NCBI RefSeq assembly: GCF_036711975.1
Contig: NC_091968.1
Coordinates: 7,378,001-7,442,000, forward strand
Source of the DNA: Onthophagus taurus
Taxonomy: Eukaryota > Arthropoda > Insecta > Coleoptera > Scarabaeidae
Direction of reading: 5' to 3'
Length of the DNA stretch: 64,000 bases
Shown piece by piece: positions 1 through 63,240 of the stretch. The translations under genes were made by a program, and so were the position numbers. Position 1 is the stretch's first letter; the number at the start of each line of letters is the position of its first letter. The notes under the pieces are model-generated. The model saw only the letters and a list, made by a program, of their open reading frames with translations, did no database searches and had not been told where the DNA came from.

Positions 1-56
1 CCTCACAATTTATATTACACAAAAAAATAACTTTCTTCTACAACAAAAAATAAAAG

Positions 57-1405
57 ATGACAAATTATTTTTCATTAAATTGGTTTATAATAAAAGGTGC
101 CGGATTGTATATTCCACCAAAATCTTCGAAACCGTCCACAAAAATGATTTATCTAATCCACAATTCATTCTGCTTAATTTACTCTTGCGTTATTTTCACT
201 TTGTGCGAAGTGTTAGAATTTGGAAAATTTTCGTCTAATTTGCCATCGATGATAAAAATCGCTAACATGGTGATGACAGATTTTTTGGGAGATTTAAAAG
301 CAATTTTATGGTTTTGGAATAAAAAGAGGATACAAAAAATTATGGAAACGTTAAATTCATATTCTCAAATTTACAAACCTTACAAAGATTTCATACCGGA
401 AAAAATAATCGAAAAGGAACGAAAAATCAAGGATTTGATTACAATTTCTTATTTGGTTATTGGAATTTCAGTTTCGCTGAGTGCGTGTGTTATGTCATTT
501 AAAGATTTAATTTTAAGTGATTATCAAAAAGAAAATTTTAATTTAAGTTTGCCTTACTCAAGTTTTATTCCTTTTAATTATAAAAAATCTAAAATTAATT
601 TTGGATTTGCTATTTTGTTTCAATTATTTCCGGTTTATAATTTTGCGTGGATTATTGTTGGTAAGTTGATCTCAATTACTGAAAATCTCATTTAGAAAGT
701 TATGTATTTATAGGTTTTGATACAACATATATGGGAATTATAAGTTATATATCAGCACATTTACAAATAATTCAAGGTGCTTTTAAAACTTTACGGGAAA
801 GATGTTTGATGGAATTAAATATTAAAGCTATAAATAATAAAGTTTTTAACAATCAATTAAAAAATCCATTAAAACTCCAAAGAGAAATGGACAAAGAAAT
901 CAATAAAATAACAAACCACCTTCAAGTTATTTTAGAAATCAGCAAAGAAATCGAATCGATTTATACTTTAGTCGTTTTATGTCAAACAATCGTTTCTTTA
1001 ATCGTTTTATGTACGTGTTTGTACATGATCTCTTTGGTTGAAGCTTTCAGTTTAGAATCGGCAAAAGAATTAGCTTACATGTCAGCAGTTGGTTGCCAAA
1101 CTTTTCTTTATTGTTATTTTGGAAATAAAGTTAGGATAAGTGTAATTAAAAAAAACTTTTTTATAATAAATTATTATACATTTTCTTTTTTGTAGAGTGA
1201 AATGTTGCCGTTGGCGATTTATTCAATGGATTGGTTATCAACCACCACATCATTTAAAAGAACGATGATTATTAATATGATAAGAATGCAAAAAGGGATT
1301 TATTTTACAATTGGTAAATTTACACCGTTAACTTTATCGACTTTTGTGCAAATTTTAAGAGGTTCTTATTCGGTTTTTGCTGTTTTAAAAAATTCTTCAT
1401 CGTAA
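57..1405 (+). CDS. Insect odorant receptor (7tm_6 family), three coding exons
   Basis: Exons 57-660, 714-1129 and 1196-1405 join in frame to 409 aa, the usual length for insect odorant receptors. The donor at 661 (GTAAGT) and the acceptors TAG at 711-713 and 1193-1195 support the model. The donor at 1130 (GTTAGG) is weaker; the next possible GT would create a stop. The start is the first ATG after an A-rich leader. The N-terminus has the 'WFIIKGAGLYIPP'-type opening, followed by several hydrophobic segments. The C-terminus shows family hallmarks: 'YCYFGNK', 'SEMLPLAIYSMDW' and 'TLSTFVQILRGSYSVFAVL'. Family knowledge: these receptors are plasma-membrane, inverted-topology subunits that pair with Orco to form odour-gated cation channels. 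No ligand can be inferred. The frame is open throughout, so it looks intact despite transposons beginning about 30 bp downstream. Confidence 0.92.
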
Positions 1406-1429
1406 ACACTAAATAGAAACACGATTAGT

Positions 1430-1705
1430 TGTAGTTGTAACAGCGTTTTAATTATTATTCAGCGTTAGATAGTTACATATTTTTATTGACCTAAAACTAG
1501 AACTAACACTAGACCTAGAACTAGAAATATTCCGATTGTTTTTAGTTCTAGATCTAGTATCAGTTCTAATACCAGTGTTATTTCTAGTTTTAATTGTTAT
1601 TCAGCTTTAGATTGTTGTATATTTTTTATTGACTTAAAACCAGAACTAACACCAGACCTAGAACTAGAAACACTCGGAGTTAGCCGTCTAAAGCGGTCTT
1701 AAGAA
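1430..1705. repeat. CTAG-rich hairpin repeat, cluster 1
   Basis: Two tandem half-units contain the words CTAGAACTAACACTAG, TAGACCTAGAACTAG and a diverged TTAGCCGTC core. The AT-rich spacer ATTGTTATTCAGC...TTGTTGTATATTTTTATTG is also present. It is the first of about twelve clusters of this family in the window (see 43885-44620 for the best copies) and abuts the odorant receptor 3' end. Confidence 0.8.
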
Positions 1706-1733
1706 AATGGGTCAGAAGAATAGTTAGTTTAAT

Positions 1734-2783
1734 ATGTCAGGTAAATATAAGGGACTTCAATCCAGAATAAAACAACATATTTTTTCTGCCCATTTTATAC
1801 CATGCGCAAATCATTCATTAAATTTAATTGGAAACGCTGTTGCAGAAAGTTGCATGGAAATGACCACCTTTTTTCAATACCATTCAGCAATTGTACGTAT
1901 TTTTTCAAGTGCTACACATAGGTGGAATGCATTACAAAAATGTTGTAAGAGCAAACACTGGTGTATCAAACCTATTTGTGACACCAGGTGGTCTGTTCGT
2001 TCCGATGCTGTGAAATCCTTAAAGGAAAATTATGAAGAAATTAAACATTGTTTACGTCATTTTTCCTCAAACAAAGATGAGAAACCATTAACAAGGTCCG
2101 AAGCTGCCGATTTACATAAAAAACTTGATACATTTGAGTATGTACTGTTACTTACTATATGGGAAAAGATTTTAGAGAGAATAGATGCTTCAAAGAAAAC
2201 TATACAGCAGTTTTAATATATGATTCATTGATAGATTTCATACAAACTGTTAGAGATGATTTTGACAATTTAGAAAGAGACACAGAAAAAGTTAAAACTA
2301 TTTCATGATGAAATTCCAGAACATGAAATAAGAGTCAGTGGGAAAGAACATTTTAAAGTTAATATTTTTTTTGTTGTATGCAATTCTTTAATTAGCAACA
2401 TTAAAAAAAGATCTGAGGGATAAAACTATTAATAATAAATTCAAAACAATTTTTCATGATAGTGATGTTGGTGACTCTTCAGTAGAGGAATTAAAATGTT
2501 ATGAACAAGATTTAAACCTAGCAGAACTGAAAAATGAAGTATTACAATTTAAGACTTTTATAAGTAAAGAAAATATTATTTCGCCTGTGTCCATGTGGTC
2601 ATTTATTCAGGAAAATAATATTATTGCAACATTCCCTAATTTAAACATAATTCTAAGAATTTATTTAACCCTTCCAATAAGCAATGCAAGCGGTGAAAGA
2701 TCATTCTCAGTAATGGCCTGAATAAAATTTTTTTTAAGATCCACATTAGGCCTACAAAAATTAAATAATTTATCATTACTTTG
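1734..2783 (+). pseudogene. hAT transposase remnant A (ZMYM1/DUF4371-like), split by later insertions
   Basis: An open segment at 1734-2216 contains 'FIPCANHSLNLIGNAVAES' and 'CDTRWSVRSDAVKSL', both typical of the RNase H-like core of hAT proteins of the ZMYM1/DUF4371 type. Further downstream 'LTLPISNASGERSFSVMA' is the hAT C-terminal dimerisation motif, followed immediately by a stop (TGA at 2719). Several frameshifts and stops separate the blocks, so the gene is dead. It breaks at 2783 inside 'NNLSLLC', and the same frame resumes at 8449 with 'IEKEILNNSINYDKL' and 'DEFAELKM' (to about 8519). The element at 2786-8448 therefore landed inside this gene. No terminal repeats were found. Confidence 0.85.
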
Positions 2784-4174
2784 TACAGTATGTCCCCGGA
2801 TTGAGTTACAAAGAGGAAAAAAATTTTTATTACTGATTTTTCAAACTTATTTCAGCATAAATAATGCGTCGGATATGTTCAAACCACTAAATCGCACGAA
2901 TTTTATACTTTAACTATAGAAGTTAACTAATTATTCCCATTTTTATGTAAAAATTGGACTTTTTTCTAAATTGAAAAATTTTCAAGTTCAATTTATGATA
3001 TGTAACCATAGAAACCATAAAAGTTACAACTTATGTTAGTGAAAAATATGGCTAAATAATTGAATACAATATTTTAAATGTAAATGTATGTAATAACACA
3101 CTATGTAATTTTGTAAGTGAATAAATCAACTATTCAGCACACATTTGAAGACAACTTCTAAATTCTTTGCAAGAATTACAAATTTCTGCCAGTGGTAGAG
3201 ATTCTATCTCATTAGTTATTCTTAGTTCTTTCAATCGTCTTTGGGGACGATTGAAATAGGGTGTCCAATTCCCGGGACCAAAAATGTTTTCGGGATTCGG
3301 GACTAAATTCTAATTCCCGGTACATGGACCAAAGGTCCCGAATTCCCGAAAATAGTCCCGAAATCAAAATACGTTTGCAAAAAAATATTTAAAAAACATT
3401 TAAAAACGTATTTTGTGTTTTTTACTTTAGTGTTACTGTAGGAGTTCACCAATTGAATAAAACAAATTTATATAGAATGAGAGAAACATAAAAAAAATCA
3501 CAAAATAGCAAATTAAAAAAAAATTTATTTTTTAAAATATGCTTTGAGTGCTACAAGTGCGTTTAAAGATTTATCTCCTAATACCGAGCGTATTTTCGTT
3601 GCAAAACAACCGGCAATAGAAAACGCCCTTTCCGATTGTATACTCGTGGGCGGTATGGTTAGCAAATACTCGTAGCATAGTTGAAGATTCTTGCCTCGAC
3701 AACCGCGTTTCTCGAAAAGGGCCATTTCGTTTTTGATTATTGTAATTAATGAATTTCTTGTTGATGTTCCAATTTGAGGTGGTGATATTGCTCTCGTGAT
3801 GGTGGACGTAGACATTGCATTTTCAAATATCCTATTTAATTTTTCTGCTAATGACAGTTTACCTTGTTGATTGTTTTTAAGACAAGATAGCGGAATATCG
3901 TCTTCCTCTTGCATTGTTGGCGACGACGACGATGTGGGTGAAAATCTTTGTATTAAGTTAAAAAAAAAGTGGGATATTTCCATAGTATCTGGATGATAAA
4001 AAAATAAATCATCCGATTTTTCTATATACCGTATTTTCTCGAATCTTATCCGCACCCCGATTTTAAAAATGCATAATGGTAAAAAAAATTTAGTTTGCGA
4101 ATGTAATCCGCATCTTTCTGTGAACAATTCGACAACAACAAAATGATGCGATGCTTGTTGTTAACCATAAATAT

Positions 4175-5700
4175 ATAATAATAATAATATATTTATGCAT
4201 AGTATATATACATAAAACTATTATAAATTAAGCAAGCACAAATTAGGCGGAGTTCAGGTGCAGCCGTAACAGCACCTGCTCTTCAAACCTAATAAAACTA
4301 ATTCTAAATATACAAGAGAGAAAAAAAAAAGAAAAACGAAAAGAAAAAGACCCGATGGTGAAATCATAATTAATTAGGTACTAAGCGTAAACTGCCCGAT
4401 CCCTGTCGCCCTACAATGCATTCTGAATTTGAGACAAGCGGCCCTTCACTCGGTGACGAAACAACCTTGAAGAAGTGCAACATTTTATAGTTGAAGGCAA
4501 ATCATTAAGAATATGTGTTGTTTGGTATGAAAAGCATTTCTTAAATAGCTGGTGATGATGTATCGGCGGGGTAAGAGTGCCCTTGAATCGAATATTCAAG
4601 GTATGAACATCGGTACGAAATTTTATTTTATTGAACAAGTATGGAGGTTTCTTCAAAGTAATTATATTAAAGAACAAAACCGCCGAATGAAGTATGCGCC
4701 TGTTTTTCATGTTGAGCCAACTCAAATCCTTTAATTTGTGCGAAACATGCTGACGTCCCCGTAACCCAAATATCAAGCGCAAGCAAGAATTTTGAATTTT
4801 CTGAATTTTTTTCGTATTACTATACGAAATACACATATCATACAATGTATCACAATAATTAAAATGCGCTAACACCAAGGCCTCGCACAAAAGCACCCTT
4901 GTTCTACGATTGAGGAACGACCGACCGCCATAAATCAGCTTAAGAGCAGCATACGCGGAAGCAGTGCACTTATTGATGTGTTTATTAAAGTTTAAATTTT
5001 CGTCCAACAAGACACCCAAGTTTTTCACACAATCCTTCAGTGGCAATACTTGATTGTTGACAACTATCTTGACCCGATCCCGAACAGAACTGTCACTTAT
5101 CACCTTTCTTGGCCCAAATAAAATCAGCTCTGTTTTAGCAGCTTTAAGACAAAGGCAGTGACGCCTATCATCGACATCCGATGGCAGAAAAGATATATAT
5201 AACTGGGTGTCATCCGCGTAGAAATGATGATTACAACTTTTTATGTATCTGTTAAAATGCGATGTGTAAAGTGAGTATAGCAGTGGACCCAAAATTGAAT
5301 CCTGAGGAACACCGGACGTTGTCGAAAGAAACGATGAAACGCGATCATTCACCTTCACGCACTGCATTCTGCCCGTCAAGTAACTGTGCAAGAACCCCGA
5401 TGCAACATCATCAAACCCAATGTAGCGAAGCATGGCATAAATCATGTCATGATTGATAGTATCAAAAGCCTTTGAATAATCTAAGAGACACATCAAAGTC
5501 AATTTTCTTTGGTCTGGGCTTCGTATGACATCGTCCACAATATTCGATAGAAGTGTATTACAGCCATAATGCTTTCTAAAACCTGACTGTGTAGGCGGTA
5601 AAAGGTTGTATTCTGTAACATAGTCCTTTAATTGTAATTCGATTACTCTTTCTGAAATTTTAATACTAGCAAAGGTTGGACGAATTACAATTTCCCAAAA
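4175..5700 (-). mobile_element. 5'-truncated LINE (CR1/Jockey superclade) with reverse transcriptase
   Basis: A minus-strand open frame (4411 to about 5695) encodes reverse transcriptase: 'PPTQSGFRKHYGCNTLL', 'CLLDYSKAFDTINHDMIYAM', 'TTSGVPQDSILGPLLYSLY' and catalytic 'YADDTQLY'. The CR1/Jockey-type C-terminal region follows ('KIQNSCLRLIFGLRGRQHVS', 'ILNDLPSTIK'). Just after YADD, about 25 residues of the palm look deleted ('SDVDDRRHCLCLKAAKTEL'). The frame stays open upstream to 5823, but that extension is antisense to the host pogo transposase and is not LINE sequence. The 3' UTR (4410-4190) ends in an (ATT)n-like tail at about 4175-4190. 5' truncation, a simple-repeat tail and the open frame suggest a fairly young copy. 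Confidence 0.85.
4255..4278 (-). other. Stem-loop in LINE 3' UTR
   Basis: CAGGTGC and GCACCTG pair across a 10-nt loop about 70 bp before the simple-repeat tail. Stem-loops at this position in CR1-like LINEs are known recognition sites for the reverse transcriptase. That role here is inference. Confidence 0.5.
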
Positions 5701-5734
5701 GCTCCTAATGATTTTCAAAAAAATTTCAATTTGT

Positions 5735-6120
5735 CTCAAACTGTGAATGCCGACGAAATGGCAGTATATCTGGATATGCCTCCCAATTTCCTTAGAAACG
5801 AGTAGTTGCGAAAAATTGTGCATAACATTAGTATGCTAGCAGTAACAAGTGATGGGGAAAAATTGCTGTCATTATTAATATTGAGAAAAAAACCATTCTG
5901 AAATCCGAAAGACTTCCCGAATGAAGTCTTAGTTAGGGCACAATAAAAGGATGAATAATGGAAAAGCTGATGATGGAATGGTTAAGACAAGTATGGAGTC
6001 GTAGACCAGGAATACACATGGAAAACGATCCCTGAAAACAATATTATAACATCATTTAAGAAGTTTTGTATAACCACTGCTTTGGACAGATCCGAAGATG
6101 ACGTAATATGGGCAGAAAAT
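5735..6120 (+). pseudogene. Tigger/pogo DDE transposase fragment
   Basis: The plus-strand translation shows 'NADEMAVYLDMPPNF' (first catalytic Asp block), 'MMEWLRQVWSRRPG' and 'SFKKFCITTALDRSEDDVIW' (C-terminal block), with several stops between. These follow the order of pogo/Tigger transposases. The CENP-B-like N-terminus and much of the catalytic core are absent, lost with or before the LINE insertion at about 5695. The fragment is dead. Confidence 0.78.
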
Positions 6121-8518
6121 GATACATAAAAATGTAAATATCGTTCTAAAACCCTTAACAGCGTTATTGTTATAATGCGATTTTATTTTACTATTTTCCA
6201 AATCGCAACTATACGACTGCGAATCTAATCCGCACTCGATTGTAATCCGCATTTGATTTTAGAGCATATAAAATTTGTAAAAAGGGTGCGGATTAGATTC
6301 GAGAAAATACGGTATTTAAGCGGATTACAGAGATAGCTCAGTGCACTTGATGTTACTGTTCTTCGTTCATTTATTCGCTGCTTTAATTCAGATTGCAAGG
6401 CTCTGCTAAATGAAGTATTACTTTTTGAAAGTTCTTGAAACATAAATCTAAAGCTGGCATCAGTCGTGTAATGATTGGCATCATATCTACATACCGCCAA
6501 CACAGTAAGTTTAATAGTTTCAAGACACTTTACAACTCCCTGTAGAACTTCAAAGTCATGGTCAGTCAGATTCATCGGCATGGATACATCAATCATAGCC
6601 TTCTGAATACAGTCCTTTAGAAAAACAAACCGTTCTAACATTTGAGCTAAGCTGTTCCATCGTGTTTTACAATCTAAAATAAGTTTTAACTCCTTGCAAT
6701 GTTTCCCTTTACATAGTTCTGCAGAACACTGTTTTTTAAAGCATATTTGGTCATCGTCTTCAATTAACTCAAAACCAGGGTCTTCATTATTGTCACTATT
6801 ATAGTCGTCCTCGCTACTACTCGTGTTGCCATCAGTTTCAGTGTTTCGGTTTGATAATTTTTGTTCATTTTTAGAATAAATAACGGCAATCACCGCAAGT
6901 TGAATGCCATGAGCAAAGCATAATTGCTGCAGTGGTTGTATTAAATTTCCTACTTTCACCATTACACTGGCTCCATCTGTTGTGATCGAAACAATGTCAT
7001 TTTTTAAGCTTAACTTAAATCGCTCGAGTTTTTTTTCAATAAGATCAATATATTTTTCTGCAGGCAAAGATCCTTTGATAGGTACTAATCCTATATTGCT
7101 ATATTCCATATTTTAAGACTTTGTCTTAATTGTCCATCCAAGTATCCGTGAATATTTATATATCGTTTGTTGGCTATGGACGTCCATTCATCGAATGTTA
7201 AGCTGAAACGACGACCTTTTTCTCGTAGACATTGTACTTCATCGGTGAAATTGTCAAATACCTTTTCGCAATACATTAAAATTCTATTTTGAATTGTTGA
7301 TGTAGAAGTTGGTAAATTCTGAAATCCCCTTGCCTCTAAACCTTTAAAACTCATTAAAACAACTTATATGACAGCTTATACCTAAAAAAATTTCATCACA
7401 ATGAATGAAAAGCTTTTATTTATAATACTTTCAAATTACCTGTATTTTTGTTTAATTTAGCTTTATTAATTTATCTCAAATTATTTGACGCGCACACAAA
7501 AACCCCCAGAGCACAGGTTAACCACCACTCACAGTGTCACACGACTATACCTATTAATTGGAGCACCGCCGGTATATAACACCGATTCTACAAATATTGC
7601 AAGTCATATCTCGTTTTAGCCGGTGATTCCCCTATCAATTTAGGTTTTTTACGAAGTCGGAGAACCGTTTCGTTAGATCACCCGTTAGCTAGTCGGAGTC
7701 TCGAGGTCAATATTTTTAACAGGTTGTAACCTGTTAGTTGTAGTCGTTCCGATATTTAAATTTTTTTCTTAATTTCGGGACTTTTAAAATCCCGGGACTT
7801 CTTAGTGGTCCCGGACCTACATTTTTTTCAAGAAATCCCGGGACGGAACCGGGACTAAATACCGGGACTGGACACCCTAGATTGAAACAATTTGTTTCAA
7901 TCGTCCCCAAAAATAAAAATCCATAATTGTAAGATCTATGTGCTGGTCATAAAATAGGACCATTCGGTCACAATGTGTGATGGTGAGCTAGGCAACCGTC
8001 TCGATGAAAGTACATTGACCGTATAAAATTTAAGGGTAATTCATCAAGTTGTTCATTAAAATAATTTATTTAACATATCCAAATATTTCTGTTGATTTAC
8101 ATTTCCGTCGAAGAAATATGGCCCAATTACCCCTTGATATGTTATAGCACACCACACATTTACTTTTTTGAAATGATGACTTCGTCTAGAGAGTGTAGAA
8201 TTTGGATTTACATCACTCTTCTATGGTTACATATCATAAATTAAACTTTGAAAAATTTTTAGTGTAGAAAAAAGATCAAATTTTTACATTAAAATGGCAA
8301 TAATTAGTTAACTTCTATAGTTAGAGTATAAAATTCGTGCAATTTAGTGGTTTGAACATATCCGACTCATTATTTATGCTGAGATAAGTTTGAAAATTCA
8401 GGAATAAAATTTTTTTTCCTCTTTGTAACTCGATCCGGGGACATACTGTATAGAAAAAGAGATATTAAATAATTCTATTAATTATGACAAACTAATTGAC
8501 GAGTTTGCAGAATTAAAA

Positions 8519-8686
8519 ATGGTATATTTGTTTAAGTATTATTGTTTGTTTTAATAACTTATGTTTATTTAATTTTTGTACATGTATATTTATTTTTCTT
8601 TTTTTTCTTGGAATCGGATAATTAAATAGAATTACATACTATATGCTTTAAAACCAAACTACCAAACGCAAAGTATGTGTCATGAC
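8519..8686. other. AT-rich remainder with no recognised gene
   Basis: This lies between the end of the split hAT-A reading frame (about 8519) and the next element. It is probably the 3' end of hAT-A, but no terminal repeat is visible. Confidence 0.4.
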
Positions 8687-9164
8687 CAGTGTTGTTAAAT
8701 ACCCGGGTATTTATTTTCAAGGGAAAATTCCCTGGATATACAGGTGTCTCACGTAACTGGTTCGTTAGAACTTTTTTAGGTTCCACTATTCATAGAGGTT
8801 TGAAATTTTGGTAGCATGGGTTGTTCATTCTAAACTTTCAATCTAAAATATTTTCAAGATGGCCACCACTTCCGGTCTACCGGAAGTAGACCACAACTTC
8901 GTTATTTTAAATGGAATGCTATAGTTTTTATTACACCTTTCAATTATACATAAAAAAATATGTTGACTTTGATAAAAGTTGTTGGTACCTACCATTTTTT
9001 GTTTTCGAGTTATTTTGATTTTAAGCTTTTTTTGGCAAATTTCACCATGCTCTTTAAAAGCATATATCTCAATTAACGTTCATTAAAAAAACCTCTAAAT
9101 TGGCACGATTACTCTTCAGATGTTGCCAAATAGATTGTCATTTCTTGTATCAGAGTATCTTATA

Positions 9165-13689: not shown

Positions 13690-14455
13690 TGTTCAACCAG
13701 TAGTATTTTAATCTCCAAGCACATAGTAGTGTTTTGGCAGCGTTAAATAGTCTTTGCCAACAATATTTAGCATTCTGAAAGTAGTTAATAGTCTTTTGGA
13801 AACAATATCTTGTCTTTCCAGGCAGATAATAGTTTCTCCCAGCAATATTTAGTCTTCTCCAAGCAGGTCCTAATCTTTTCTATTAGTATATGGCGCTCTG
13901 AAAGCAGTAAGTAGTCTTATGGAACCAGTACCTCGTCTTTCCAATCAGTTTGTAGTTGTTTTTAGCACTATCTAGTCTTCTCCAAACAGATTGTAATCTT
14001 TTCCACCAGTATCTAGCCTTTTGGAAGCAGTAGGTACCTTTTTTGGAGAGCATATCTCTTTTTCCAAGTAGTTATTAATCTTTTCCAGCAGTATCTAACA
14101 TTCTGGAATCAGTTTCCACTCTTTTCCAAACAATTATTAAAGTCTTTGAAAGCAATAACTAGTCTTGGAAGCAGTATTTCGCCTGTCCAAGTAAGTCAAA
14201 ACCTTTAACAACAGTGTTCAGCGTTCTGGAAGCAATAGGTATTATTTTAAAAACAGTATCGAGTCTTTTCTAAGTAAGTTGTGGTCTTTTTCTTCAGTAT
14301 CTAGCATTTTAGAAGCAGTAGGTAACTTTTTAAAATAGTATTTCCTCTATCCAAGCAGTTTTTAGTCTTTTCCTAGCAGTATTTAATCTTCTAATAGCAA
14401 TAATTAGTATTTTGCCAAAAGTATCTAGCATTCAGGAACCAATAAGTTAAAGACA
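13690..14455. repeat. Degenerate minisatellite of ~20-bp units in the rump 5' intron
   Basis: Roughly 35-40 diverged units fit variants of the consensus CCAAGCAGTATCTAGTCTTT. Examples are CCAGCAGTATCTAACATTCT, GGAAGCAGTATTTCGCCTGT and CCAAACAGATTGTAATC. Alternate units begin GGAAGCAG or CCAAGCAG, hinting at a two-unit higher-order period. Confidence 0.8.
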
Positions 14456-31331: not shown

Positions 31332-45736
<14,405 letters not shown>

Positions 45737-46690: not shown

Positions 46691-47982
46691 ATTTATATAA
46701 TAATAATGTCTTAATAGGGATGATGAAAGAAATTAATCTGGAAAACTAACACCTGTCCAAAAACATATGGAAAAATTTATTTTAGACATCCAAGATACTG
46801 AGGAGTTAACAATCCAAATATGTTTGGATTTTCTTTTTCTACCTGGAATTTCCAGATGGAATAAAGATATCTCGAAGATATCATTTCCAGATAATACCGG
46901 GTTTTCTAAAGTTTTGCAATGATATCCAAGAATATCCAATTTTGTCCAGAGACATTAAGAGGATTTCCAGAATGATAAAAGTTTTTAGAGGTATCCCAAG
47001 ACTTTTCGAAGCTCCTCTAAAAATTTTCAAGAATATACCGGGTTTTCTAAGGTTTGACAATTTCGTTGTTAGACATCGAAACAATTTTCTAAGGATATAG
47101 AGAATTTTCAAAGTTGTCAAAGTATTCTCAGATGATTTCTGCAGCTTTTATAAGGATTTCCTACGACATTAAAAATTTCTAAAGATTACCTAAGAGTTCC
47201 AGAAAATTTCCAGAATGATAAAAGTTTTTAGAGGTATCCCAAGACTTTTCAGAGCTTCTCTAAAAATTTTCAAGAATACGCGGTTTCTTCTAAGATTTGG
47301 CAATGATATCTAAGAATATCCAATTTTGTTCTAAGACATCCAGACGATTTTGTAAGCTTTTAGAAGATTTTCAAAGTTGTCAAAGGATTCTCAGACGATA
47401 TCCGCAGCTTTTATAAGGATTTGTAACGACATCAAACATTTCTAAAGATTACCAGAGGATTTCCAAAATGATGAAAGTTTTTAGAAGTTTCCCAAGTCTT
47501 TTCAGAACTCCTCTAAAAATTTTCAAGAATATACTGGGTTTTCTATAGTTTGGCAATGGTAGCCAAGAATATCCAATTTTGTCCAGAGAAATCAAGACGA
47601 TTTTCTAAGCTTTTGGAGGATTTTCAAAGTTGTTCAAAGTTCCCCAAGGATTCTCAGACGATTTTTGCAGCTTTTATAAGGATTTCCAAGAACATCAAAA
47701 ATTTCACAAAGATTACCTGAGTGTTCCAGAGGATTTCCAAAATGATAAAAGTTTTTTTGTAATTCGCGACGGTAATGAAAGCACTAACAGTACTCAAACG
47801 GGTGCTGTAATGAGAGCTTAGTAACATTTTATGGAGCCAGTTCAAGTTGGTGACATTGCGTCATTAATTTTTCTAGTTGTCAATGTGACAATTTTTGTCT
47901 ATGGATGTTTAAACACGCTCTTAGCATCGAATACAAGGTGAGGACATTGAACACTGAGCAATTTCTCTTATTTCGGGAGGTG

Positions 47983-52289: not shown

Positions 52290-52448
52290 CGTCTTTAGCC
52301 GTCTTATGAGACGCAAGCCTAAACCCGAATATTTCTAGTTCTAGATCTAATGTTATTTCTAGTGATAGTGCAAGTGTAAAGCTAGAACTAACACTATACC
52401 TAGAGCCGTCTTTAGAGACGTGCGGCTAAACCCAAATGATTCTAGTTC
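52290..52448. repeat. CTAG-rich hairpin repeat, cluster 7, host of the foldback element
   Basis: Cores TTTAGCCGTCTTATGAGACG and GCCGTCTTTAGAGACGTGCG are present. It stops at TTCTAGTTC (52440-52448), where the foldback element begins. Confidence 0.85.
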
Positions 52449-52699
52449 ATGTGGCTGAAGTTAGATTCATATTCGAATCTGTACCAGATTCAGATTCATA
52501 AAATTACAGTTGACCAGACAAGTATTGAACATATCAATTGAAAAATCGTTTTCTGAAACTACAGAAGTTGTAGCAATCTGCGACTACCCTGGATAATTCG
52601 AATAGACCCTCTAGTATGTTCCCTGTCTACCCTCACCCTCAGATTTGCCGTAGGGGCCGAGGGGTTCCTCGTTTTCAATAGCATACTTAGATATTATTT

Positions 52700-54212
52700 T
52701 CTCAATAACTAGAGACTGCAGCACCCTGATACTAGTCTAGATTATTGCATTAGGTCCTCTGGTATCTTTCTAGCCCACCAGCACCCCCAGATTTGCCGTA
52801 ATGGCCGAGGGGTGAATTTTTTAATATTACTCGTTTTCAATATCAAATGTAAACATTATTTTCTCAATAATTAGAGACTGCAGCACCCTGATACTAGTCT
52901 AGATTATTGCATTAGGTCCTCTGGTATCTTTCTAGCATACCAGCACCCCCAGATTTGCCGTAGGGGCCGAGGGGTGAATTTTTTAATATTACTCGTTTTC
53001 AATATCAAATTTAAACTTTATTTTCTCAATAACTAGAGACTGCAGCACCCTGGGACTAGTTTAGATTATTGCATTAGGTCCTCTGGTATCCTTCTAGCCC
53101 ATCAGCACCCCCAGATTTGCCGTAGGAGCCGAAGGGTGAATTTTTCAATATTCCTCGTTTTTAATATCAAATGTAAAAATTATTTTCTCAATAACTAGAA
53201 ACTGCAGCACCCTGGGACTAGTCTAGATTATTGCATTAGGTCCTCTGGTATCCTTGTAGCCCATCAGCACCCCCAGATTTGCCGTAGGGGCTGAAGGGTG
53301 AATTTTTCAATATTCCTCGTTTTCAATAGCAAAGTTAAAAATTATTTTCTCAATTACTAGAGACTGCAGCACCCTGGGACTAGTCTAGATAATTGTATTA
53401 GGTCCTCTGGTATCTTTCTAGCCCATCAGCACCCCCAGATTTGCCGTAGGAGCCGAAGGGTGAATTTTTCAATATTCCTCGTTTTCAATATCAAATGTAA
53501 ACATTATTTTCTCAATAATTAGAGACTGCAGCACCCTGATACTAGTCTAGATTATTGCATTAGGTCCTCTGGTATCTTTCTAGCATACCAGCACCCCCAG
53601 ATTTGCCGTAGGGGCCGAGGGGTGAATTTTTTAATATTACTCGTTTTCAATATCAAATTTAAACTTTATTTTCTCAATAACTAGAGACTGCAGCTCCCTG
53701 GGACTAGTTTAGATTATTGCATTAGGTCCTCTGGTATCCTTCTAGCCCATCAGCACCCCCAGATTTGCCGTAGGAGCCGAAGGGTGAATTTTTCTATATT
53801 CCTCGTTTTCAATAGCAAAGTTAAAAATTATTTTCTCAATAACTAGAAACTGCAGCACCCTGGGACTAGTCTAGATTATTGCATTAGGTCCTCTGGTATC
53901 CTTGTAGCCCATCAGCACCCCCAAATTTGCCGTAGGGGCCGAAGGGTGAATTTTTCAATATTTCTCGTTTTCAGTATCAAATGTAAAAATTATTTTCTCA
54001 ATAACTAGAAACTGCAGCACCCTGGGACTAGTCTATATTATTGCATTATGTCCTCTAGTATCCTTCTAGTCCACTCGCACCCCCAGATTTGCCGTAGGAG
54101 CCGAAGGGTGAATTTTTTAAAATTCCTCGTTTTCAATAGCAAAATTAAAAATTATTTTCTAGACTAGACTAAAAGAACTAAAGACTACAGCGCCCTGGGA
54201 CTGGTCTAGATT
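52700..54212 (+). repeat. Left arm array: ten 162-bp units
   Basis: AGACTGCAG (or AAACTGCAG) recurs exactly every 162 bp: 52712, 52874, 53036, 53198, 53360, 53522, 53684, 53846 and 54008, with a diverged tenth unit at about 54178. Each unit has GTCTAGATTATTGCATTAGG, TCCTCTGGTATC, CAGCACCCCCAGATTTGCCG and TATTTTCTCAATAA. Confidence 0.95.
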
Positions 54213-54213
54213 A

Positions 54214-54704
54214 TTATATTCAAAACTTATTCAATATTTAGTTTGATTTGAAAGTATAATTTTCATATGGCTTTTACTTCTTTATTAATGAAACTTGAAC
54301 GACACTTTTCAAAATTTTTAGACACATTAAAGCATTTAAATTAATTTTTTATATTGTTTTTTGTATTTGTTTTTTATATTATATGTTTTTTATATTGACA
54401 CGGCTCTACCTGTAACGTCGGTAGCTGTGCCTTACTTATAAAGGTTTCATTATCAGTAGAGGGTTCTGATAAATGTTCTTCATCTAATCTATCATGAATA
54501 TTACTAAATAATGAAACGTTAGAAACAAGTAGCTGCGATATAGTTGGCGACGAACGTTTTAGAATGGGGCTGTTACTATTTAGTATTATAGTTTCATTTG
54601 CATTAGTAGATCTTTCTTTTATGTCAATGTTATTATATAGAAGTAAAAGCAATACGAAATTATAATATCAAACTAAATATTACATCAATTTTAAATATAA
54701 TAAT
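54214..54704. other. Unique AT-rich centre of the foldback element
   Basis: About 490 bp with no unit similarity. The minus strand has a 92-codon open frame (54652-54374) rich in Ser, Thr and Asn ('SPILKRSSPTISQLLVSN', 'DRLDEEHLSEPSTDNETF') that I do not recognise. It could be a fragment of a lost mobile-element protein or chance. Confidence 0.6.
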
Positions 54705-56560
54705 GTAGACTAGTATCAGGGTGCTGCAGTCTCTAATTATTGAGAAAATAATGTTTACATTTGATATTGAAAACGAGTAATATTAAAAAATTCACCCCTC
54801 GGCCCCTACGGCAAATCGGGGGGTGCTGGTGGGCTAGAAAGATACCAGAGGACCTAATGCAATAATCTAGACTAGTATCAGGGTGCTGCAGTCTCTAATT
54901 ATTGAGAAAATAATGTTTACATTTGATATTGAAAACGAGTAATATTAAAAAATTCACCCCTCGGCCCCTACGGCAAATCTGGGGGTGCTGGTGGGCTAGA
55001 AAGATACCAGAGAACCTAATGCAATAATCTAGACTAGTATCAGGGTGCTGCAGTCTCTAATTATTGAGAAAATAATTTTTACATTTGATATTGAAAACGA
55101 GGAATATTGAAAAATTCACCCTTCGGCTCCTACGGCAAATCTGGGGGTGCTGATGGGCTAGAAGGATACCAGAGGACCTAATGCAATAATCTAGACTAGT
55201 TCCAGGGTGCTGCAGTCTCTAGTAATTGAGAAAATTATGTTTAAATTTGCTATTGAAAACAAGGAATATTAAAAAATTCACCCCTCGGCCCCTACGGCAA
55301 ATCTGGGATTGCTGGTGTGCTAGAAGGATACCAGAGGAACTAATGCAATAATCTAGACTATTCCCAGGGTGCTGCAGTCTCTAGTTATTGAGAAAATAAT
55401 GTTTACATTTGATATTGAAAACGAGGAATATTGAAAAATTCACCCTTCGGCCCCTACGGCAAATCTGGGGATGCTGATGGGCTAGAAGGATACCAGAGGA
55501 CCTAATGCAATAATCTAGACTAGTATCAGGGTGCTGCAGTCTCTAATTATTGAGAAAATAATGTTTACATTTGATATTGAAAACGAGTAATATTAAAAAA
55601 TTCACCCCTCGGCCCCTACGGCAAATCTGGGGGTGCTGGTGGGCTAGAAAGATACCAGAGGACCTAATGCAATAATCTAGACTAGTATCAGGGTGCTGCA
55701 GTCTCTAATTATTGAGAAAATAATGTTTACATTTGATATTGAAAACGAGTAATATTAAAAAATTCACCCCTCGGCCCCTACGGCAAATCTGGGGGAGCTG
55801 GTGAGCTAGAAAGATATCAGAGGACCTAATGCAATAATCTAGACTAGTATCAGGGTGCTGCAGTCTCTAATTATTGAGAAAATAATGTTTACATTTGATA
55901 TTGAAAACGAGTAATATTAAAAAATTCACCCCTCGGCCCCTACGGCAAATCTGGGGCTGCTGGTGGGCTAGAAAGATACCAGAGGACCTAATGCAATAAT
56001 CTAGACTAGTATCAGGGTGCTGCAGTCTCTAATTATTGAGAAAATAATGTTTACATTTGATATTGAAAACGAGTAATATTAAAAAATTCACCCCTCGGCC
56101 CCTACGGCAAATCTGGGGGAGCTGGTGAGCTAGAAAGATACCAGAGGACCTAATGCAATAATCTAGACTAGTATCAGGGTGCTGCAGTCTCTAATTATTG
56201 AGAAAATAATGTTTACATTTGATATTGAAAACGAGTAATATTAAAAAATTCACCCCTCGGCCCCTACGGCAAATCTGGGGGTGCTGGTATGCTAGAAAGA
56301 TACCAGAGGACCTAATGCAATAATCTAGACTAGTATCAGGGTGCTGCAGTCTCTAATTATTGAGAAAATAATGTTTACATTTGATATTGAAAACGAATAA
56401 TATAAAAAAATTCACCCCTTGGCCCCTACGGCAAATCTGGGGGTGCTGGTGGGCTAGAAAGATACCAGAGGACCTAATGCAATAATCTGAACTAGTCCCA
56501 GGGTGCTGCAGTCTCTAGTTATTGAGAAAATAATATCTAAGTATGCTATTGAAAACGGTG
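54705..56560 (-). repeat. Right arm array: twelve 162-bp units, inverted
   Basis: CTGCAGTCTCT recurs exactly every 162 bp at 54724, 54886, 55048, 55210, 55372, 55534, 55696, 55858, 56020, 56182, 56344 and 56506, in inverse orientation to the left arm. Units around 54724-55040 and 55534-56344 are more alike than those between, suggesting local amplification. Confidence 0.95.
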
Positions 56561-56778
56561 AACCGCTCGGCCCCTACGGCAAATCTGAGGGTGAGGATAG
56601 ACAGGGAACATACTAGAGGGTCTATTCGAATTATCCAGGGTAGTCGCAGATTGCTACAACTTCTGTAATTTCAGAAAACTATTTTTCAATTGATATGTTC
56701 AATACTTGTCTGGTCAACTGTAATTTTATGAATCTGAATCTGGTACAGATTCGAATATGAATCTAACTTCAGCCACAT

Positions 56779-56965
56779 TTCTAGTTCTAGGTATAGTGTT
56801 AGTTCTAGTTTTAATTGTTATGTAGTAGCGGTAGATTGTTGTATGTTTTTATTAAAGTAAAAGTAGAATTAACACTAGACCAAGAACTAGAATCATTCGG
56901 CTTTAGCCGTCTTATGAGACTCACGGCTAAACCCGAATGTTTCTAGTTCTAGGTCTAATGTTATG
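56779..56965. repeat. CTAG-rich hairpin repeat, cluster 8
   Basis: This is a continuation of cluster 7 after the foldback insertion: TTCTAGTTCTAGGTATAGTG, the AATTGTTATGTAGTAGCGGT spacer and the core CTTTAGCCGTCTTATGAGAC...CACGGCTAAACCCG. Confidence 0.85.
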
Positions 56966-58009: not shown

Positions 58010-59290
58010 TTGTACCTAATGATTCCGAAAGTGATGAATCTGACATTATACCACGAAAACGGCAAAAAAAGAAATGTTATAAAATCCGATAGCGAAAGTG
58101 ATTTTGAAGATTGGAATGAAAATGACATTACACCTTCTTTGGACGATTATTCAAACATTTCGGGTGTAACTGTAGAATTAAGTGATTTAACCATCAATAA
58201 AGTAACGGATTTATTTTTCGATAACGACTTTTTTCATTTAGTTGTTTCTCAAATCAATTTGTACCACTTCCAAATGAAAAAATTGCATAATTCTGCTAAA
58301 ACTTTACCATAACCCTTGGGTTATTGATATTGTTGGGACAAACTAAAAATGCTTGTTGGAGAGATTACTGGTCAACGGACCCTTTGGTTGAAGCACCAAT
58401 ATTCCCTAAAACTATGAGCAGGATGAGGTTCGAGCAAATCCTTACATTTTTCCATCTCAGTGATAATGTACAAAATGCACCTAGTAGAGGCAGACTTTGT
58501 AAAATTAGACCTTTATTGGATTACCTTATTCCAAAAATTCAATCTATGGATGTACTGAAACAGCAATTATCATTTGTTGAAGCAATGATACCATGGAGAA
58601 GACGTCTCAGCTTCAAAACATATAATCCGGCAAAGATTACAAAATACGGTATTTTACTGAGAATGATTCGTGAAAGTTAGTCTGGGTACATTTGCAACTA
58701 TTAGATTTATTCGGGTGGAGGACCAAAACTACAAGAAACTATATTATCAGTCTTGCAACCGTATTTTGGTTATTGGCGTGATGTATATCAAGATAATGAC
58801 TACAACGTTTTTACAGCTGGTATATTATTATACTTGCCAAATGTACTAATAGAAAAGTCCAAGAATCTTCATAGAGGGCAAATGACTTTGTTACGAAAAG
58901 GACTCAATCTTCTTCCAACAGGGAAATATAAACGGTTGGTGCGCATAATATCAACTATTCATGATATGTCTATGATATTAACTGAAAAGCGGAATAAACA
59001 TTACACAAATGATAAAGCGGCACCTTCGTGCATATACAATGCAATAAAGACATGAAAGGAGTCGACCACTGCAGATCAGTATTTGGCGAGCAGCAGTATC
59101 TATCAAAAAAGTATAAAGTGGTTCTCTTTAATCACAAAATAAACTAAGATACAAAAAACTTCTACTATAAGTAGCTAAGAAATGGATTTCTGTAGATTCA
59201 GATGAATGCAGCACACTACTTGGCAGCTCTTCTCGTACTTCTAACAGGACTTTCTACAAAGGTCCACCTTCCAGGCTTTCAGGAAAACTA
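58010..59290 (+). pseudogene. piggyBac transposase (DDE_Tnp_1_7), broken
   Basis: Segments in order: acidic N-terminus ('SDSESDFEDWNENDITP'); 'WRDYWSTDPLVEAPIFPKTM' and 'RFEQILTFFHLSDN'; 'SFVEAMIPWRRRLSFKTYNP'; 'QPYFGYWRDVYQDNDYN'; 'RLVRIISTIHDMSM'; then a shifted tail ending 'SNRTFYKGPPSRLSGKLS'. The first catalytic Asp (normally 'DEAM') is Val, and the third block (normally 'GVDxxDQ') is unrecognisable. At least four frameshifts or stops. Only the second Asp ('QDNDYN') is kept. Confidence 0.9.
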
Positions 59291-60738: not shown

Positions 60739-61130
60739 GCCACAAATTAGAATCATTCGGCTTTAGCCGTCTTATGAGATGTAAGGCTACATCCAAATGT
60801 TTCTAGTTCTAGGTCTAATGTTATTTCTAGTGACAGTGCAAATGTAAAATTAGAACTAACACTATACCTAGAACTAGAATCATTTGAGTTTAGCCGCACG
60901 TCTCTAAAGACGGCACTAACACTATGTATAGTGTTAGTTCTACATAGTAAAAAAGCTAGTATAAAACTAGTACTAACGCTGTACCTAGAACTAGAATCGT
61001 CTATAGAGATGTGCGGCTAAACCCAAATGATTCTAGTTCTAGATATAGTATTAGTTCTGGATATAGTGTTAGTTCTAGATAGTAACAGTGTTAGTGTAAA
61101 ACTAGGACTAACACTAGACCTAGAACCAGA
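60739..61130. repeat. CTAG-rich hairpin repeat, cluster 11
   Basis: Continuation of cluster 10, with cores such as GTTTAGCCGCACGTCTCTAA then AGACGGC. Confidence 0.85.
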
Positions 61131-62397: not shown

Positions 62398-63240
62398 AAT
62401 AACAATAAAACTAGAACTAACACTATTCATAGAACTAGAACCACCTTTAGAGACATTAGAGACGTGCGGCTCTAAAGTATAGTGTTAGTTCTAGCTTTAC
62501 ACTAGTATTATTATTATGTTGAACTAACACTATACCTGGAACTATAATCATTTGGGTTTAGCCGCACGTCTCTCAAGACGGCTAAACCCGAATGTTTCTA
62601 GTTCTAGGTATAGTGTTAGTTGTAGATTGACTAGTGTAAAACTAGAACTAACACTAGACCTAGATCTAGAACTTTAATCATTCTAGAAAAAAAACTAAAA
62701 CTAGAACTAACACTAGACCTAGATCTAGAACTAGAATCATTCGGTTTTAGCCGTCTTTAGAGACGTGTGGCTAAACCCAAATGATTCTAGTTCTAGGTAT
62801 AGTGTTAGTCGTAGATAGTAACAGTGTTAGTGTAAAACTAGAACTAACACTAGACCTAAAACTAGAAAATTTCGGGTTTAGCCGTGCGTTACAGAGTAGT
62901 TTTACACTAGACTATTACTATGTAGAACTGACACTATACATAACTCTATACAATAGTGCTGCTTTAAAACTAGAACTAACACTAGACCTAGAACTAGAAT
63001 CATTTGGATTTAGCCGCACGTCTCTCAAGACGGCTAAACCCAAATGATTCTAGTTCTAGGTCTAGCGTTAGTTCTAGGTCTAGCGTTAGTTCTAGGTCTA
63101 GTGTTAGTTCTAGTTTTAATTGCTATTCAGTGCTATATTGTTGTATATTATTGTTGAACTAAAAGTAGAACTAACACTATTCATAGAACTAGAAACAATC
63201 GGGTTTAGCTGTCTTATGGTTAAATCCGAATATTTTGAGT
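62398..63240. repeat. CTAG-rich hairpin repeat, cluster 12
   Basis: At least six units, including TTTAGCCGCACGTCTCTCAA then GACGGCTAAACCC (62557-62588 and 63009-63039). A short tandem TCTAGCGTTAGTTCTAGG occurs near 63061-63110. The repeat creates an 88-codon low-complexity open frame ('KLELTLDLELESFGFSR') that is not a gene. Confidence 0.88.

Follow-up and report, generated by a model that had tools for sequence, protein, structure and literature searches.

A foldback transposon built of opposed 162-bp unit arrays in Onthophagus taurus, and its transposase-bearing relatives

Introduction

Foldback elements have been known since 1980 (cited in PMC4079207), and we report here on an element of this architecture in the beetle Onthophagus taurus, located at 52449-56778 of a 64,000-bp stretch of NC_091968.1 (positions 7,378,001 to 7,442,000) that is referred to throughout as the window. 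The closest description that we found, compared by description only, is that of Rehavkus-1_TC from Tribolium castaneum, a 9.5-kb element whose inverted termini contain a unit of 164 bp (PMC10218199). According to PMC6446971, the Rehavkus group is known from Repbase only and occurs in arthropods and annelids; its members have 9-bp duplications, a single open reading frame (ORF), a PHD finger and terminal inverted repeats (TIRs) of 26-400 bp, the 3′ TIR being preceded by a minisatellite. The same source gives target-site duplications of 8-11 bp for Mutator/MULE elements. The elements studied here differ from the Rehavkus account in that arms reach up to 35 units (copy L012), the window element and at least 14 further copies have lost most of the gene, five lineages coexist in one genome, and the PHD finger is weak.

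Several other systems share part of this design. Drosophila FB, FB4 and FB-NOF elements resemble ours, by description, in foldback architecture and in duplications of 9-10 bp; the source, from 2021, calls the FB4 transposase unknown, whereas a transposase-bearing relative was found here (PMC8277862). Tetris of Drosophila virilis is likewise non-autonomous, with long TIRs, a tandem unit (~220 bp), 8-10 bp duplications and a unit number that varies between allelic copies, but it has another unit length and three structurally complete copies, and PMC4079207 reports no autonomous partner. Tm1 of root-knot nematodes is a Mutator-related element with composite foldback TIRs, 9-bp duplications and both transposase-bearing and non-autonomous members; unlike ours, it encodes a 496-aa FLYWCH-MULE transposase, and "Ulp" is absent from the text of the paper (PMC3169594). 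Galileo of Drosophila also has long, internally repetitive TIRs, with transposase-binding sites within their tandem repeats (PMC3688188). Its transposase, however, is of a different superfamily (P) and carries a THAP domain.

The O. taurus genome combines non-autonomous foldbacks with a remnant of the gene from which their origin can be read, and with relatives whose transposase-Ulp1 frames are open and whose arms are designed alike. Unit lengths of 141-142 and 162 bp in five lineages allow a direct test of spacing against sequence conservation, and a constraint on unit length is offered as a new lead.

Results and Discussion

The window element and its insertion site

The window element is 4,330 bp long, with the 9-bp duplication TTCTAGTTC on either side. 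Its parts, in window coordinates, are:

52440-52448, no strand: left target-site duplication TTCTAGTTC; the joined flanks align to uninterrupted host-repeat copies
52449-52664, plus strand: left terminus, the common 20-bp end followed by a diverged outermost unit
52665-54160, plus strand: left arm, a tandem array of the 162-bp unit with 9 full units, the innermost diverged
54173-54342, minus strand: remnant of the 3′ end of a transposase gene, mostly downstream of the stop; 97.6% to copy B
54385-54638, minus strand: remnant of the N-terminal coding region of the transposase gene; 90.9% to copy B
54699-56557, minus strand: right arm, the opposed tandem array of the 162-bp unit with 11 full units
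56558-56778, minus strand: right terminus, a diverged outermost unit and the common 20-bp end
56779-56787, no strand: right target-site duplication TTCTAGTTC

Tandem Repeats Finder (TRF) places the left array at 52665-54160 (9.2 copies) and the right array at 54699-56557 (11.5 copies), each with a period of 162 bp and 0% indels, and 18 of 18 steps between neighboring units are 162 bp. Beyond the full units there are a 43-bp partial unit at the right side of the center and a diverged outermost unit at both ends, and the innermost left unit is 87% identical to the reference unit. Units of the window element are 88-99% identical (17 of 20 units compared), with differences of up to 12%. Positions 1-1767 of the element pair with 4330-2575 in a stem of 1,767 columns with 92.6% identity and one gap, leaving a loop of ~0.8 kb.

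A first-pass annotation of this DNA had proposed TIRs, the TTCTAGTTC duplication and two opposed arrays, all of which are present. Its count of nine units plus one on the left and 12 on the right differs from our 9 and 11 full units through the counting of partial units; its "exact 162-bp unit" is exact in spacing but not in sequence, and the stem of its proposed 2-kb hairpin exists but measures about 1.77 kb. That the locus is a single insertion of foldback type with a restorable empty site was also borne out. The target is a dispersed TTCTAG-type repeat, and when the flanks are joined with one copy of the duplication kept, they align unbroken across the junction to other copies of this host repeat, as at C1:3164136-3164243 (91% over query positions 31-141, junction at 72/73).

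TTCTAG/CTAGAA repeats, dispersed and tandem, were seen at 43963-44279, 61034-61081, 62637-62867 and 63048-63115 as well as in the element flanks, which also contain an inverted GTTTAGCCGTC..GACGGCTAAAC-like motif.

A genome-wide family with common termini

With up to 2 mismatches allowed, the 20-bp terminus was found 67 + 67 times in the 291-Mb genome (reversed control, 0 + 1), and with up to 3 mismatches 72 and 73 times by strand (reversed control, 1 and 6). Among 100 termini listed there are 35 inward-facing pairs less than 12 kb apart, which span 794-10,664 bp at separate sites. We examined 23 fetched copies together with two gene-bearing elements, A and the remainder of copy B. Perfect 9-bp duplications border 21 of the 24 two-ended copies, the window element and A included; of the other three, L012 has 8 bp, B unequal duplications and L031 an inverted flank, and L028, which is without its last 20 bp, was excluded before the count. 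Further copies with these termini and duplications, whose absence would have counted against the first-pass reading, were looked for and found. Unit steps are exactly 162 bp in 248 of 265 cases in 22 elements (window element, L009-L027, L030 and B, with A, L028 and L031 omitted), the remainder being 148-170 bp. L023 and L024, of 4,342 bp each, are identical in their centers and agree in the order of their unit clusters, yet they sit between different 9-bp duplications; arms can therefore move intact by transposition.

Two rival explanations bear on this evidence. Tandem arrays of a satellite-sized unit might be read as a pair of inverted satellite arrays or as an artefact of assembly, and not as a transposon at all, and inverted arms are a known assembly hazard. 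Against this stand the 35 terminus pairs at separate sites, the 21 perfect duplications and the uninterrupted paralogous sites, and we regard such an origin as extremely improbable. Long, internally tandem inverted repeats with 9-bp duplications are also what a Drosophila FB-type foldback proper would have, that is, a member of the FB/FB-NOF family moved by an FB transposase; FB4 itself has 9-10 bp duplications and TIRs of ~700 bp (PMC8277862). Rehavkus-1_TC, with its inverted termini of 164-bp units, is nonetheless the closer match by description, and FB membership appears unlikely to us.

At one foldback locus (L031, C15:4150010-4159000), the right flank repeats the left one in reverse complement. 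Positions 440-1229 match 7950-8767 in inverted orientation at 92.9% over 819 columns, with ~168 bp of flank included, and the arms may have caused an inverted duplication here. We take a frame adjoining it to be Tc1-mariner-like. In another copy bounded by the common terminus (G000:C5:11614254-11620028), A-type units among the matches listed all lie on one strand, and the copy looks as if one arm were missing.

Origin of the center by internal deletion

A center of ~544 bp is common to 15 copies including the window element, with 0-8 pairwise differences (mean 3.7); the L031 center (94%) was omitted from this comparison. Two parts of it match the gene-bearing copy B (C2:27744656-27755319) in reverse orientation, positions 13-182 at 97.6% over 170 columns and positions 225-478 at 90.9% over 254 columns. 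The gene in B is broken over several frames and has other sequence between the parts that match the remnants. Since the center of the window element holds remnants of both the gene end and the N-terminal region, the element is, judged by its sequence, a non-autonomous, internal-deletion derivative of a transposase-bearing parent. Larger pieces of the gene are kept in L027 and L030, with later transposase and Ulp1 frames (Peptidase_C48, 6.7e-14 in L027), and in L025, where an Ulp1 piece has a PHD-like end.

Transposase-bearing relatives and classification

Element A (C11:12818268-12828883; 10,616 bp) has the same terminus and a 9-bp duplication, GGAAGTAAA. From the first likely Met its open frame encodes 1,094 amino acids (aa), with DDE residues and an Ulp1 protease domain (Peptidase_C48, 9.5e-11). 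Residues D340, D414, C459, H462 and E636 of A are invariant in seven aligned proteins, namely A, the protein of lineage C described below and five public homologues. The common motifs are an Asp in D-A/S-T-G, a second Asp, C-x2-H, and a Glu in V-E-x-W; the cysteine of C-x2-H was not seen in lineage E. Over a 299-aa stretch the proteins of A and B are 66% identical, and silent-site differences (pS 0.81) far exceed replacement-site differences (pN 0.19; 0.77 and 0.28 in the Ulp1 part), as expected of a gene under constraint.

The canonical Mutator/MULE catalytic pattern is D, D, C-x2-H, E. Its presence here, together with the 9-bp duplications, would fit a canonical Mutator/Phantom foldback such as Tm1. 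A profile comparison with the canonical MULEs of this genome aligned the second D and C..H in the expected register (HH-suite probability 1.9%, score 26.8, P 0.025), with a score of 17.4 and P 0.39 for the reversed control, P 0.1 for a single other MULE and 0.49 for a hAT-like protein; the alignment is a hint, not proof, of relationship. On the other side, Pfam MULE (PF10551) had no match in four proteins scanned, the 16 PF10551 matches in the genome all lie away from the gene-bearing loci B, A, C, D and E, and the proteins scanned contain no FLYWCH match and have a C-terminal Ulp1 domain instead. We consider a canonical Mutator/Phantom identity improbable. The larger relative with a MULE-type transposase expected at first pass is accordingly found as regards the transposase-bearing relatives and the D-D-C..H-E pattern, but not as regards the Pfam match, and the profile comparison is weak.

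Other searches gave the following. When the family profile was compared with solved structures, the sole matches were to Ulp1/SENP-type proteases and cysteine proteases related to them, in the C-terminal part. The PHD finger (PF00628) scored 5.3e-4 in the L025 remnant, below the cut-off, as it was in P0001; it was above the cut-off in homologue P0002 (6.1e-7) and had no match in A. The THAP domain of Galileo and the P superfamily had no match in the proteins scanned, and of 52 pattern matches in viral contigs none was confirmed as a relative.

Given the termini that the copies share, their 9-bp duplications, the gene remnants in the center and the gene-bearing relatives of like architecture, the window element is best explained as a non-autonomous cut-and-paste transposon, derived by internal deletion from a transposase-bearing parent with opposed-array termini and belonging most likely to the Rehavkus group, close to Mutator. 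We hold this explanation with high confidence. The 9-bp duplications, the arrays beside the termini and the single transposase ORF (A, 1,094 aa; C, 1,436 aa) agree with Rehavkus, a duplication within 8-11 bp and the D, D, C-x2-H, E residues with Mutator/MULE, and inverted repeats built of tandem units with Drosophila FB. The elements are probably Rehavkus-type and Mutator-related.

Several observations weigh against this explanation. Membership in Rehavkus was assigned by published description. B, of the window type, shows no sign of constraint against L034 (dS 0.047, dN 0.059), and no intact transposase of the window element's own subfamily was present among the 126 of 491 candidates scored. 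The intact transposase of A is 66% identical over the 299 aa, and mobilization in trans is what we infer. To these are added the missing PF10551 match and the weak profile comparison described above, a predicted fold of homologue P0002 (five sequences) too poor for use (pLDDT, a model-confidence score, 38.6), and a common G/C motif across units that is not above chance.

Under the preferred explanation, a related copy would supply the DDE transposase in trans. The enzyme may bind at the 20-bp ends and, as others have demonstrated for Galileo, at sites repeated along the arms, and insertion would proceed with a 9-bp stagger. Whole-unit exchange, including exchange between arms, would alter array length, and unit length would be held constant by some property of binding, complex assembly or chromatin.

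The N-terminal part of the lineage C protein contains an in-frame coding tandem repeat of 168 bp (56 aa), in 2-4 copies by TRF. It was seen in 7 of 8 lineage C copies (L037-L043), with none listed for L036.

Array dynamics

In the 15 short copies, 255 units were sorted into 50 clusters. Copies with identical centers can have unlike arrays, as in L018 (4 and 1 units) and L023 (11 and 9), or L019 (5 and 9) and L021 (12 and 4). L012 (C6:23282750-23292650) has 35 right units, the longest right arm among the copies fetched, with a nine-unit block three times over and three unit types (B, F and J) that otherwise occur in left arms only. Among 18 elements with at least 2 full units per arm, the nearest-neighbor unit lies in the same arm for 66% of 242 units, compared with 53% for shuffled labels (maximum of 200 shuffles, 60%). 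This excess indicates that the arms are partly distinct; a third of best unit matches lie in the opposite arm. We infer that arrays change by whole-unit block duplication and transfer between arms, which outpace point mutation and stay nearly always in register.

The unit period does not follow descent

The arms of A hold 18.0 and 17.7 copies of a 162-bp unit and are 95.9% identical (1-3079 against 10616-7550). Homology of the A and window units is shown by a local score of 34, against 23 for the best of 1,000 dinucleotide shuffles; when the two are aligned end to end as circles, each carries one single-base gap, and the length is unchanged. Lineage C (C1:19.76 Mb; open frame of 1,436 aa) has 141-bp units, with at least 18.6 + 14.2 copies in two adjoining left pieces and at least 11.7 on the right in the pieces read, and more copies of this lineage have opposed arrays. 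Opposed units of 142 bp in lineage D (C3:1.64 Mb; open frame of 977 aa) number at least 6.5 and 16.1, and those of 162 bp in lineage E (C7:19.74 Mb; open frame of 917 aa) at least 4.2 and 4.1, again in the pieces read. The periods are therefore 162 bp for the window lineage (W), A and E, 141 bp for C and 142 bp for D. Arrays flank both sides in all five lineages; for C, D and E they were read beside the gene, without termini. At four other transposase-like loci, where 701 bp were taken on one side at guessed places and the copies look old, 0 of 4 had an array.

Of the ten unit pairs, only W-A aligns better than shuffles, the best of the other nine being reached by 38 of 400. A transposase tree (137 columns; D placed by 200 residues, E by 146) separates W, A and C from D, E and public homologues with a support of 89. 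Within the latter side the placement of E has no support (at most 42); identities between E and W, A, C or D are 25-28%. As C, with its 141-bp unit, groups with W and A, and the distant E has the period of W, the period does not follow descent. With W and A counted once, four random draws give two pairs within 1 bp at a frequency of 0.0026 (100-200 bp) or 0.0007 (100-300 bp), a post hoc estimate from few lineages.

Constant spacing had been attributed at first pass to homogenization or recent amplification. Unit turnover does happen, by block duplication and transfer between arms. The attribution is not supported as it stands, however: units differ by up to 12% while their spacing is fixed, and the 162-bp period persists in lineages with diverged (A) or unalignable (E) units, so that fixed spacing needs a further cause. 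Tentatively, and with the balance still tilted against it, unit length may be under selection independent of sequence, at discrete values about two DNA turns apart, to which the 164 bp of the published Tribolium element may be compared. The arms would then serve as a phased docking array, in which the spacing keeps all sites on one face of the helix, as a transposase or nucleosome complex may require. The literature searched yielded no account of several lineages that share a period, which is no proof of absence.

Two candidate features of the units were tried and rejected. For nucleosome positioning through AT-dinucleotide periodicity, no unit was clearly above shuffles, the observed value being reached by 44 of 500 in C and by 211 to 471 of 500 in W, A, D and E. 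A shared G/C-run core as binding site gave scores reached by 19 and 29 of 100 shuffles at k = 7 and 8; at k = 10 the best word was AT-rich and was reached by 2 of 100.

Other features in the window

The remaining features of the window are:

683-1192: ORF with a match to 7tm_6 (5.4e-18), an odorant receptor family of insects, which marks the host as an insect
4411-5835, minus strand: reverse-transcriptase frame
13751-14097: short tandem array, period 123 bp
35386-36936, minus strand: Tc5-like transposase frame
47058-47721: short tandem array, periods 263/253 bp
58300-58680, plus strand: DDE_Tnp_1_7 frame, presumably piggyBac-type

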